This document shows positions 58,678 to 61,271 of a stretch of 64,000 bases of DNA, piece after piece. Source of the stretch: Isosphaera sp. (GTDB lineage Bacteria > Planctomycetota > Planctomycetia > Gemmatales > Gemmataceae); assembly GCA_013822345.1 (NCBI GenBank), contig PNKH01000018.1:21231-85230 (forward strand), in the 5' to 3' direction. The stretch's first letter is position 1. Each line of letters begins with the position of its first letter. The position numbers and the translations under genes were made by a program. The notes below the pieces were generated by a model, which was not told the origin of the DNA, did not search any database, and saw only the letters and a program-made list of their open reading frames with translations.

Positions 58678-58743
58678 CGGACAAGCCCGCGGCGCGAGCA
58701 AGGGCGGGGGCCGAAGCCCTTGCTCGCGCCGCGGGCTTGTCCG
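58678..58743. repeat. Inverted repeat between DUF1570 gene and riboswitch
   Basis: Perfect 28-nt arms (58678-58705 and 58716-58743) with the core ACAAGCCCGCGGCGCGAGCA. It lies five bases past the DUF1570 stop and may prevent read-through into the riboswitch. Confidence 0.9.
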
Positions 58744-58771
58744 ACGCACACGGGCCCGCTACGTTATCCGC

Positions 58772-58948
58772 ACCGACAGGTTCGCGCCGCCGCGGCGGCG
58801 CGACGAAGAGGGAAGCCGGTGCGATTCCGGCGCAGGGCCGCTGCTGTGTTCGGCCAGAGCCTCGGGCACTCCTCGCCACTGTGACCCGGTCACGGGAAGG
58901 CCGCCCGAGACTCGTTACGAGCCGAGAGCCAGAAGACCTGCCTGTCGG
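58772..58948 (+). promoter_or_regulatory. Cobalamin (B12) riboswitch aptamer
   Basis: The aptamer consensus is present in order: P1 5' strand CCGACAGG (58773-58780), GAAGAGGGAAGCCGGTGCGA then TTCCGGCGC (58805-58833), CGCCACTGTGACC (58874-58886), CGGGAAGGCC (58893-58902), GAGAGCCAGAAGACCTGCC (58924-58942) and the P1 3' strand CCTGTCGG (58941-58948). These match the B12-box and core of the cobalamin family. It lies on the same strand 128 bp upstream of the DUF1559 start at 59077 and probably controls that gene and the following DUF4465 gene. Known members bind adenosylcobalamin or related corrinoids; the ligand form here is not known. Confidence 0.95.
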
Positions 58949-58995
58949 GCTGTTCGGTGCCTCGGACCCAGGCGACCGGCCGACAGGCTCTTTCC
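58940..58995 (+). promoter_or_regulatory. Candidate riboswitch expression platform (competing hairpin)
   Basis: The P1 3' strand (GCCTGTCGG, 58940-58948) can pair with a second copy of the P1 5' strand, CCGACAGGC (58980-58988), giving a nine-pair hairpin with an inner GCCT/AGGC stem, followed by TCTTTCC. The same 3' strand cannot pair with both copies, so ligand-dependent P1 formation and this hairpin exclude each other. Whether the hairpin is a terminator is inference; the T-tract is weak. Confidence 0.6.
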
Positions 58996-59041
58996 GCGCA
59001 CGCGCGCACCCTGTCCGTCCGCCCCCGGCCCCCCGCAGGCA

Positions 59042-59067
59042 CCCTTCCGCCCGTCCCGGCGGAAAGG
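59042..59067 (+). promoter_or_regulatory. Shine-Dalgarno sequestering hairpin
   Basis: CCTTCCGCC (59043-59051) is complementary, with one bulge, to GGCGGAAAGG (59058-59067), which overlaps the ribosome site GGAAAGGAG (59061-59069) of the GTG start at 59077. Pairing would hide the site. This is consistent with translational control downstream of the riboswitch. Confidence 0.55.
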
Positions 59068-59076
59068 AGCCGACCC

Positions 59077-60141
59077 GTGCGCCTCTGCCTGGACCGCGGC
59101 CGTCCCGGCCGCTCCACCGACCCAACTCCGGTCGCCTTCGGGTGGGTCGTGTTGCGTCCCGACCGGGGTAGCGGCGGCCGGGACGGCCGCGGTCCAGGAG
59201 CCTTCACCCTGGTCGAGCTGCTGGTCGTCGTCGCGATCATCGCGGTGCTGGTCGGCCTGCTGCTGCCGGCCGTCCAGAAGGTCCGCGAGTCCGCCGCCCG
59301 GGCGAAGTGCCAGAACAACCTGAAGCAGATCGGCCTCGCCCTGCAGAACTACCACGGCGTGTACCAGCGGTTCCCGGTCGGGACGGCGCTGGTCGGCTAC
59401 CCCGAGGGGACGCCGCCGGACGCGATCCCGCTCGCCGCCCTGAACGCCGGCCCGTACCGCCCCGGGCTGTTCGCCGCGATCCTGCCGTACCTCGAACAGG
59501 AACCCCTGTTCCGCACGCTGGCGATGGACGCGGCGATCGACGACGGGCCGAACCGGACCGCCGGCCAGACCCCCGTCGCCGCCTACCTCTGCCCGTCGGC
59601 GAAGCACGCCTACGGGCTGAAGAAGGCCCCGCACTCGCTCCCGCTCGCCGACCCGACCCTGGAACTCGCGGTGACCGATTACAACGGGCTGAACGGGGCG
59701 ATGCGGCTGTACCCGGCGGCCCCGCCGGGGGCGCAGCTCCAGGACCGCGGCGGGTTCGCCGAGCGGCAGCCGCTCCGCGTCACCGACTTCACCGACGGCA
59801 CCTCGCAGACGATCGACGTGGTCGAGACGGTGAACTTCGGCCGCGGGGTGTGGGTCCACGGCCGGCCGCACTACAACCAGGCGGCGTACGCGGTCAACTC
59901 CGCGAACGGGTTCGACAACACCCCCGGCACCGTCTTCCCGGACGGCTCGAACCTGCCGGTCGCGAACCGCGGCCCGGGCCGCGGGGCGGCCGGGACGTGG
60001 GGGATGTCGAGCGACCACCCGGGCGGGGCGAACGCCCTGTTCGTCGACGGGTCGGTCCGGTTCCTGCCGAACAGCCTGCCGCCGCAAACCCTGACCGCCT
60101 TCGCCACCCGCGACGGCGGCGAGGTCGCCCCCGGTGAATGA
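59077..60141 (+). CDS. DUF1559 pseudopilin-like protein with repeat-extended leader
   Basis: A 354-aa protein. The prepilin-like segment AFTLVELLVVVAIIAVLVGL begins at residue 42, followed by [20 protein letters not shown], then a DUF1559 beta domain (LPYLEQEPLF, HPGGANALFVDGSVRFLPN near the C-terminus). The leader is unusual: 37 of its first 41 codons come from a 111-bp family B repeat (59088-59198), in frame, placed between the GTG start and the FTLVE motif. GTG 59077 follows GGAAAGGAG and is the only well-placed start. The gene sits under the cobalamin riboswitch and precedes the DUF4465 gene. Confidence 0.85.
   Translation: MRLCLDRGRPGRSTDPTPVAFGWVVLRPDRGSGGRDGRGPGAFTLVELLVVVAIIAVLVGLLLPAVQKVRESAARAKCQNNLKQIGLALQNYHGVYQRFPVGTALVGYPEGTPPDAIPLAALNAGPYRPGLFAAILPYLEQEPLFRTLAMDAAIDDGPNRTAGQTPVAAYLCPSAKHAYGLKKAPHSLPLADPTLELAVTDYNGLNGAMRLYPAAPPGAQLQDRGGFAERQPLRVTDFTDGTSQTIDVVETVNFGRGVWVHGRPHYNQAAYAVNSANGFDNTPGTVFPDGSNLPVANRGPGRGAAGTWGMSSDHPGGANALFVDGSVRFLPNSLPPQTLTAFATRDGGEVAPGE
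59088..59198. repeat. Family B palindromic repeat inside the DUF1559 leader
   Basis: Arms begin CCTGGACCGCGGCCGTCCCG (from 59088) and end CGCGGTCCAGG (59198). The length is 111 bp, exactly 37 codons, so the insertion preserves the frame. Six family B elements are now seen: 8220, 31121, 34807, 41975, 55943 (half) and this one. Confidence 0.9.
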
Positions 60142-60170
60142 TCCGTAGCCGGGGGTCTCCGGAGGTGGCG

Positions 60171-60344
60171 CCCCTCACCCGGCCGGCGAAGCGCCGGCCG
60201 ACCTCTCCCCAGCGGGGAGAGGTGGGGCCGATGCGACCCCTCTTTTTCGCACCCGGCTCGGATAGCGACCGAGACGACCAGCGGCCCCCACCTCTCCCCG
60301 CTGGGGAGAGGTCGGCCCGGCGCTTCGCCGGGCCGGGTGAGGGG
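60171..60344. repeat. Large 174-bp inverted repeat between DUF1559 and DUF4465 genes
   Basis: Nearly complementary arms of about 57 nt: the left begins CCCCTCACCCGGCCGGCGAA, the right ends GCCGGGCCGGGTGAGGGG. Each arm includes CGGCGCTTCGCCG-type and CCTCTCCCC-GGGGAGAGG sub-hairpins. It contains TCTTTTTCG in its loop (60241-60249). It is the longest inverted repeat in the window. Confidence 0.9.
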
Positions 60345-60410
60345 GAACCACCGACCGGGACACCCGACCGCCAACACCACCCGAACAACCCCTACCCCGT
60401 GAGGTCCCCG

Positions 60411-61271
60411 ATGACCGCCATCCGCCTGGTCTCCGCCGCCCTCCTCCTGTCGGCCGCCCCGGCGGCGGCCGCCCCGATCGTCGTCACGTTCGAGAACCCG
60501 ACCGTGCCCGTCCCGATCCCCGCCCCCGACCCGTTCAACCCCGCCGGCACCCGCCCGTTCGAGAACGGGGCGAACCTCGTCCCGGGCGGGTCGTTCACCT
60601 CCAACGGCGTGACCTTCAACAACCTCTACGACCCGGGGTTCGACATCAACTCCGGCTGGTCGTACTCCCGGGTCACGGACGTGACGACGGCCGGGTTCCT
60701 GAACCAGTACGCGGCGTACAACCTGCCCGGCGGCGGGGCCGGCGACGGCTCCGCGAACTACGGGATCGCGTTCTCGTTCAGCCCGGGGGACGCCGTCATC
60801 GACCTGCCGGCCGGGTTCCGCCCGGACTCGGTCCGGCTGACCAACACCACATTCGCGGCCCTGTCGATCCTGAACGGCGACCAGTTCGCCCGGGCGTTCG
60901 GCCCGGGCGACTTCTTCCTGCTGACGATCAGCGGCACGGACGCCGCGGGCGGGGCGACGGGATCGGTCGACTTCTTCCTGGCGGACTTCCGGGACGGCCG
61001 CAGCACCGTCGTGTCGGGGTGGACGACGGTCGACCTGTCCGGGCTCGGGGCGGACACCGCCCGGCTGGCGCTCGGGTTCACGTCGTCGGACGTCGGGCGG
61101 TTCGGGATCAACACCCCGACCTACGTGGCGGTGGACAACCTGGTGCTGGTGCCGGTCGGGGGGGCGGTCGGGGCGGCGGTGCCGGAGCCGTTGTCGCTGG
61201 CGCTGGCGGCGGCCGCGGCCGCCGGGTGGCGACGGGTGCGCCGGGCGGGGGTCCGCTCGTCCAGTGGGTGA
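60411..61271 (+). CDS. DUF4465 protein with PEP-CTERM anchor
   Basis: A 286-aa secreted protein with signal TAIRLVSAALLLSAAPAAA. The DUF4465 pattern is clear: VTFENPT near the start, GGSFTSNGVTFNNLYDPGFD, WSYSRVTDVTTAGFLNQYAA, NTTFAALSILNGDQFARAFG near residue 145, FFLADFRDGRS near residue 187 and GFTSSDVGRFGINTPTYVAV near residue 224. The C-terminus has a PEP-CTERM sorting signal: VPEPLSLAL, an Ala-rich membrane stretch and an Arg cluster (RRVRRAGVR). It should be exported and anchored or released at the cell surface. The ligand is unknown; the upstream cobalamin riboswitch makes a corrinoid-binding role plausible, as inference. No classical ribosome site is seen before ATG 60411 (GAGG at 60401-60404). 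Confidence 0.8.
   Translation: MTAIRLVSAALLLSAAPAAAAPIVVTFENPTVPVPIPAPDPFNPAGTRPFENGANLVPGGSFTSNGVTFNNLYDPGFDINSGWSYSRVTDVTTAGFLNQYAAYNLPGGGAGDGSANYGIAFSFSPGDAVIDLPAGFRPDSVRLTNTTFAALSILNGDQFARAFGPGDFFLLTISGTDAAGGATGSVDFFLADFRDGRSTVVSGWTTVDLSGLGADTARLALGFTSSDVGRFGINTPTYVAVDNLVLVPVGGAVGAAVPEPLSLALAAAAAAGWRRVRRAGVRSSSG

Follow-up and report, generated by a model that had tools for sequence, protein, structure and literature searches.

A cobalamin riboswitch, a DUF1559 gene and a DUF4465 gene

The window analysed here is a stretch of 64,000 nucleotides from the planctomycete Isosphaera sp. (contig C18:21231-85230 of genome G000, 7.47 Mb and 95.2% complete), in which a cobalamin riboswitch is followed, on the same strand, by a gene for a DUF1559 prepilin-like protein and a gene for a secreted DUF4465 protein. 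The riboswitch aptamer (RF00174) occupies positions 58761..58959 of the + strand and was matched end to end by the covariance model (cmscan, positions 1-189 of 189) with 100.9 bits (gathering score 31.5, E value 4.5e-24); the complete aptamer described in the initial annotation was therefore confirmed. It is the sole Rfam match in the window, and a search of the whole genome returned this single RF00174 match. The same annotation placed the aptamer 128 bp before the DUF1559 gene; however, the best start of this gene is the GTG at 59077, which stands 7 nt behind an AAAGGAG read from the sequence as a Shine-Dalgarno-like element (59063..59069, + strand), so that the gap is 117 nt. Upstream of the riboswitch lies a large palindrome (58678-58743) that has no second copy in the window.

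The DUF1559 gene (59077..60141, + strand) encodes 354 residues and matches PF07596 (157 bits), the N-terminal methylation motif N_methyl (PF07963, 24.1 bits; TIGR02532, 18.4 bits) and the H-X9-DG motif (TIGR04294, 38.4 bits); the scores for PF07596, PF07963 and TIGR04294 are over the cut-off. The predicted mature pilin part (59203..60138, + strand) would start at F43 of FTLVELLV, a cleavage site placed from the motif, and the 45-sequence alignment A2 starts at this residue. The predicted leader contains, in frame, a 111-bp palindromic repeat (59088..59198) with 25-nt perfect inverted ends, of which at least 40 near-full-length copies are present in the genome. In three DUF1559 leaders (that of the window, C1:163344 and C48:7239) the repeat lies in frame just before the FTL[VI]ELLV motif, and the residues that precede it differ among the three; since the prepilin leader would be cleaved away, the repeat may be tolerated at this position. 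A fourth repeat, at C51:7141, coincides with a DUF1559 match in coordinates only. Another large palindrome (60178..60336, formed by inverted repeats I1 and I4, with no second copy in the window) occupies the intergenic gap between the DUF1559 and DUF4465 genes.

The DUF4465 gene starts at the ATG at 60411 (60411..61271, + strand) and encodes 286 residues that match PF14717 with 144.5 bits (cut-off 25). An N-terminal signal-like stretch, judged by eye, and a C-terminal PEP-CTERM motif (PF07589) that is marginal, with 20.8 bits against a cut-off of 20.7, agree with the secreted PEP-CTERM protein that had been annotated after DUF1559. Solved relatives of this protein include PDB 9hmu, 9qpm, 9fct and 9i2l, the last three deposited as DUF4465 proteins; the closest is 9hmu, a complex with vitamin B12 (83 bits). 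Passages of PMC13398666 describe B12 binding by eight members of the family, one of them from the planctomycete Mucisphaera calidilacus, and name two tyrosines, that of the HI loop being 97% conserved and the second lying in the DE helix. These passages also bear out the statement of the initial annotation that DUF4465 genes occur in B12-uptake loci. The HI-loop tyrosine is kept in the window protein as Y238, in the motif NTPTY, according to the alignment with the PDB relatives. At the DE-helix position it has F148. Four other aligned Gemmataceae DUF4465 domains, with 48-63% identity to that of the window, have the DE-helix tyrosine; one of the four, that of Fimbriiglobus ruber (G006), shows a phenylalanine in the HI loop instead. 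Given the solved relatives and the B12-binding family members, the window DUF4465 protein likely binds cobalamin.

Regarding B12 genes, it had been stated that the window carries none. This holds for the four families that were searched on contig C18, i.e., PF02310, PF07715, PF01032 and PF02571, none of which gave a match, and the statement stands for these four only.

Recurrence of the gene set in the family and the class

Among the 95 Gemmataceae genomes of the family survey, RF00174 is present in 83 and DUF4465 in six. The order riboswitch, DUF1559, DUF4465 was found in the window genome, Gemmataceae bacterium SSF1 (G031), Zavarzinella formosa (G094) and F. ruber. In Limnoglobus roseus (G051) the DUF1559 and DUF4465 genes have a riboswitch each, and the two units are adjacent and face each other. 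In F. ruber, L. roseus and Z. formosa the DUF4465 domain is part of proteins of 1,280-1,950 residues with immunoglobulin-type repeats. Genome G053 was left out of the carriers of the gene set; its DUF4465 gene lies on a contig of 3,182 bases (C78, L041) that also encodes a TonB receptor and a PEP-CTERM protein and is probably a contaminant.

In the whole class, DUF4465 was detected in 99 of 397 genomes. Linkage to the riboswitch was examined in 80 of the 93 DUF4465 genomes outside the family, and its values are lower bounds: at least 92 of 105 DUF4465 domains, from at least 74 of the 80 genomes, have an RF00174 match no more than 6 kb upstream on their own strand. From 85 linked regions 80 were analysed (the five left out have gaps of 348-360 nt in four cases and 1,520 nt in one). 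In 54 of these 80 loci a DUF1559 gene stands between the riboswitch and DUF4465, and in 47 of the 54 the first possible start of DUF4465 comes no more than 150 nt after its stop codon; ten of the 54 genes were compared with Pfam and all ten are DUF1559 (155-182 bits). One locus shows a different arrangement, and the other 25 are taken up below. The pairing of riboswitch, DUF1559 and DUF4465, for which the initial annotation had proposed a survey of related genomes, is thus recurrent in the family as well as in the class.

The DUF1559 genes found at these loci are also related among themselves. The riboswitch-linked copies of Z. formosa, F. ruber and L. roseus are 74%, 74% and 68% identical to the window protein, whereas the other paralogues of these genomes, among the matches listed, reach at most 46% over the full length and at most 60% over short stretches; each compared genome has at least 122-175 DUF1559 matches. 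A tree of 135 rows, built with a quick method, included 52 of the 54 class genes and 14 paralogue rows, one of which is the gene of the set from G263. The 52 class genes and the gene of bacterium SSF1 formed a single clade (support 98), which was tested against 14 rows only, as these were the paralogues sampled. The genes of the window genome, F. ruber, L. roseus and Z. formosa formed a separate clade (100), and one further riboswitch-linked gene of L. roseus was placed among the paralogues. A third clade (63 rows, support 100) contains most of the small riboswitch-linked prepilins of Gemmataceae, apart from true DUF1559.

Prepilins behind B12 riboswitches beyond DUF4465

The link between riboswitch and prepilin is not restricted to loci with DUF4465. 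The family genomes contain 132 RF00174 matches (two below the gathering score, and with neighbouring matches in G059 and G091 included), and 74 of them, in 67 of 83 genomes, are followed within 1.5 kb by a DUF1559-like open reading frame (ORF) on their own strand. Considering that at least 166 DUF1559 matches occur in the window genome, one of them might fall near a riboswitch by accident. Nevertheless, from the density of DUF1559 in six genomes (a lower bound, as at most 150 candidates per genome were scored) a start on the same strand would be expected within 1.5 kb at about 0.7-1.7% of places, against the 74 of 132 observed; around the family riboswitches no DUF1559-like ORF was found downstream on the opposite strand and one was found upstream on the same strand, where 1 kb of upstream sequence was available for 88 of the 132. 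Moreover, in Z. formosa, F. ruber and L. roseus the paralogue closest to the window gene, out of more than 120, is the copy at the locus. Chance adjacency was rejected on the recurrence in the class, the paralogue identities and these density controls, and we consider it to have a negligible probability. Thirteen of the 132 riboswitches have a divergent DUF1559-like ORF upstream, a number above the density expectation that perhaps reflects divergent units.

When longer loci were considered, a DUF1559-like prepilin was the first labelled gene behind 79 of the 132 riboswitches; at the others the first label was DUF6580 (17), NrdA (8), MetE (3), CbiM (2) or another gene, and 11 had no label; these names reflect similarity to chosen queries, of which those for MetE, NrdA, NrdB, CbiM, CobN, BtuF, DUF6580 and CbiB were checked with Pfam. 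In eight of the 79 loci with a prepilin a gene of the BtuF, BtuC, CbiB or DUF6580 type comes later on the same strand. Among these rows are those of F. ruber, with prepilin, secreted protein, DUF6580-like, BtuF-like, FecCD, ATPase and a second BtuF-like gene (in Pfam, Peripla_BP_2, FecCD with 278 bits and ABC_tran), and of L. roseus, with prepilin, CobD/CbiB, aminotransferase and BtuF-like gene (CobD_Cbib with 285 bits and Peripla_BP_2); in G093 a DUF6580-like ORF alone stands behind the riboswitch-linked prepilin. Putative inner-membrane B12 genes, either BtuFCD or DUF6580-BtuF, are found behind the same riboswitch class in some of the related genomes.

Behind the family riboswitches, DUF6580 (PF20221) often has a BtuF-like gene after it (L047, L065, L130, L373 and others), and from this sequence context it is a candidate inner-membrane component of B12 transport. 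Another product encoded behind cobalamin riboswitches of Gemmataceae is a short protein that is secreted and carries a GTGSNRAAFVVDW-like motif (L046:6398-7141, L373:1488-2213); one such protein has a PEP-CTERM match just below the cut-off.

Outside the class, 80 named DUF4465 loci were examined, i.e., the best 80 of 486, considering same-strand neighbours up to 4.5 kb away. A prepilin was found at 51 loci, a TonB receptor at 14, both at none and neither at 15, several of these at contig ends; a single query protein was used to detect the receptors, and two of the 14 matches scored weakly (21 and 26 bits). Of 18 prepilins from such loci, 17 share homology past the N-terminal helix (distantly in L154, L210 and L212), and ten of the 18 have GWFG near the C-terminus. 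The three that were checked (L186, L214 and L182) match only N_methyl in Pfam, which indicates a family different from DUF1559. This second family is large (6434 proteins at E <= 1e-5) and adjoins DUF4465 in Phycisphaerae, Verrucomicrobiota and one Armatimonadota contig. At the level of sequence, the prepilins behind B12 riboswitches fall into three groups. A scan of 23 of the named loci revealed RF00174 in 15 and AdoCbl-II in one; no riboswitch was detected in L182, L177, L195, L201, L163, L208 and L158, of which L177, L195 and L158 have little upstream DNA.

The composition of individual loci differs. A row from Sedimentisphaerales (L186) contains the riboswitch, DUF4465, a companion secreted protein, prepilin, BtuF-like gene, ABC (ATP-binding cassette) ATPase and FecCD (281 bits); in Puniceicoccaceae (L182) and Opitutaceae (L177) the row is DUF4465, companion and prepilin, and in Opitutales (L163) a TonB receptor comes after DUF4465 and no prepilin was found. 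These rows bear on another explanation for the prepilin, i.e., that it is an adhesion or biofilm pilin made under B12 scarcity, by which cells would attach to B12-producing neighbours while DUF4465 captures B12 independently. The finding that in L186, F. ruber and L. roseus the prepilin shares its gene row with genes for B12 import or other cobalamin genes, and the fact that prepilin and DUF4465 stay together across several phyla, argue against it, and we regard this explanation as improbable.

The companion protein, which belongs to no Pfam family, is present at 56 of the 80 named loci: 37 with a prepilin, 12 with a TonB receptor and seven with neither. It is represented by L186:7696-8820, L038, L105 and L109, has 4535 homologues, and is fused to DUF4465 in 23 of the 120 listed; two database proteins, possibly products of read-through, join the PEP-CTERM companion to a DUF1559 of the window type. 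For the L186 companion a structure model with a predicted local distance difference test (pLDDT) score of 80 gave a best PDB match at E 0.034 and none at E <= 0.001, and chain searches with the companion, a G030 protein and the secreted protein of L041 returned nothing significant. These adjacencies, i.e., prepilin, companion and DUF4465 in the 37 loci, together with the fusions and joined proteins, would also be expected if the prepilin were a pseudopilin dedicated to the export or mounting of DUF4465 and PEP-CTERM proteins as its cargo, and B12 entered by a porin or other channel. The PEP-CTERM motif of the window DUF4465 protein favors this possibility, and so does the extent of the family: in passages of PMC10632474, DUF1559 is the largest paralogue group of the model planctomycete Planctopirus limnophila, with 68 genes of function not known, which fits a set of cargo-specific devices. 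On the other hand, 67 of the 132 family riboswitches precede a DUF1559-like prepilin without DUF4465 or a recognised B12-import gene in the available sequence, so that no known cargo need be present, and in F. ruber genes for BtuF, BtuC and an ABC ATPase come after the prepilin. On balance, a dedicated export pseudopilin seems to us unlikely, although it is the strongest of the alternatives.

A proposed B12-scavenging operon and its relation to known systems

The reading that we favor, to which we assign about an even chance (roughly 50%), is that riboswitch, DUF1559 and DUF4465 constitute a B12-scavenging operon in which the prepilin substitutes at the cell surface for BtuB, the TonB-dependent receptor. 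B12 scarcity would turn the operon on; repression by B12 is suggested by the fact that in F. ruber the same riboswitch class also precedes the cobalamin-independent MetE and the class I NrdA/NrdB (assigned with Pfam), which a cell short of B12 should require. The prepilin would then be processed and would assemble, alone or with other pilins, into a fibre that spans the periplasm or extends from the surface. DUF4465, anchored through PEP-CTERM, would capture B12 at the surface and pass it to the fibre or to the outer-membrane pore of the fibre, and an inner-membrane system would take B12 into the cytoplasm for MetH, which is present in the window genome (Met_synt_B12 146 bits, B12-binding 62 bits). 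The processing of the prepilin, the formation of a fibre and the transport of B12 at the window locus are inferred. The corrinoid-responsive surface system suggested by the initial annotation is thus partly supported, capture by a pseudopilin-like fibre being its putative part; the mutual exclusion of prepilin and TonB receptor next to DUF4465 is a point that this annotation did not have.

In agreement with this proposal, the TonB Plug domain (PF07715) was not detected in 61 of 80 genomes, including that of Isosphaera sp., nor in 48 of the 64 tested genomes with a riboswitch-linked prepilin. CbiJ (PF02571), taken as a single marker of synthesis, was found in none of 25 genomes; its absence is no proof of auxotrophy, since L. 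roseus carries CbiM, CobN and CbiB genes behind riboswitches. In contig C49 of the window genome, an AI-2E family transporter (159 bits, L329:136-1950) shows a weak B12-binding match, below the cut-off, in its C-terminal part.

Several observations weigh against the proposed operon. With respect to the gene set, in 25 of the 80 class loci the riboswitch lies directly before DUF4465, with a gap of 311-720 nt and no DUF1559 in between (in three of these DUF1559 comes behind DUF4465 instead), and the linked DUF1559 of bacterium SSF1 is 44% identical to the window protein (108 bits), with other copies in that genome reaching up to 141 bits. The small prepilin of F. ruber that was checked matches PF07596 over positions 1-25 only, and four Verrucomicrobiota prepilin loci (L177, L182, L195 and L201) showed no riboswitch, two of them having little upstream DNA. 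As for the receptor, absence of the Plug domain does not go with the prepilin within the class, given that the domain is missing from 24 of 34 tested genomes with a prepilin at the locus and also from 12 of the 14 whose locus has DUF4465 and the riboswitch but no prepilin. Likewise, prepilin and TonB receptor do not occupy one fixed slot, because their mutual exclusion follows in large part phylum lines and because the gene order varies, the prepilin being before DUF4465 in the class and behind it elsewhere.

The window genome itself adds to these objections. A strong FecCD (BtuC-type) protein is absent from it, the best matches having 32 and 20 bits versus approx. 260-310 in relatives, and its DUF6580 gene is not linked to a riboswitch. 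In the B12 pocket of the DUF4465 protein F148 replaces the DE-helix tyrosine, as read by hand from the alignment with the PDB relatives, and the structure model of the DUF1559 protein was unusable (pLDDT 52). An expression platform was sought at 69 loci, where the 3' strand of P1 showed weak alternative pairing (mean z -0.98, with 30% below -1.5) and an anti-Shine-Dalgarno helix was not clearly above shuffles (mean z -0.58); no clear platform emerged from the fold and anti-Shine-Dalgarno analysis, which was not used to assign an on/off direction.

A broader version of the proposal extends to planctomycetes and some other members of their superphylum. According to it, a pseudopilin fibre loaded by DUF4465 would replace the TonB receptor and carry cobalamin into the periplasm, separate pilin families would have been recruited at least three times, and the many DUF1559 paralogues of each genome would be substrate-specific parts of a general nutrient uptake system based on fibres; we hold this to be speculative and doubtful as a whole. 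In the case of the window, if it is true that the prepilin replaces BtuB, this would be a route of vitamin import across the outer membrane unlike any known to us. Through the riboswitch, and through a partner whose family binds B12, one DUF1559 subfamily is connected with a specific small molecule, and its function thereby becomes testable with labelled cobalamin. No publication linking a prepilin to B12 was found in the open-licence literature, judged mostly by titles and the beginnings of abstracts, and the word pilin is absent from the main text of PMC13398666 and PMC12751083.

Among known systems, the closest include the riboswitch-controlled BtuJ1 and BtuJ2 loci of Bacteroides thetaiotaomicron, which, in passages of PMC13398666 and PMC12751083, share with the window a cobalamin riboswitch, a secreted DUF4465 protein and the HI-loop tyrosine. 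These loci differ in that they contain BtuB, BtuCD, BtuF and a lipoprotein DUF4465, whereas the window has a DUF1559 prepilin and a PEP-CTERM motif, in a genome where no Plug domain was found; in addition, the position of F148 is a tyrosine in BtuJ1. The closest solved relative, that of PDB 9hmu, is the DUF4465 protein D5EK51 from Coraliomargarita akajimensis; another Coraliomargarita DUF4465 locus (L208) lacks a prepilin and contains two TonB receptors, in contrast with the prepilin of the window locus. With the pseudopilins of type II secretion and the type IV pilins, the window DUF1559 protein shares the N-terminal prepilin motif (PF07963, TIGR02532) and the H-X9-DG domain. It differs from them in lying behind a B12 riboswitch and in its scores, which do not come near the equivalog cut-offs for GspG, ComGC and others.

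Another point of comparison is provided by the pili-like fibres of P. limnophila and Gemmata obscuriglobus, which bind dextran and belong to an uptake system that is uncharacterised in the passages of PMC5394234, where the way in which planctomycetes move large nutrients over the outer membrane is an open question. These fibres bind a polysaccharide and their proteins are not named in those passages, whereas the presumed ligand at the window locus is B12. Nevertheless, they are planctomycete fibres that bind a nutrient and have a proposed role in its uptake, and by analogy they lend support to the mechanism proposed here.

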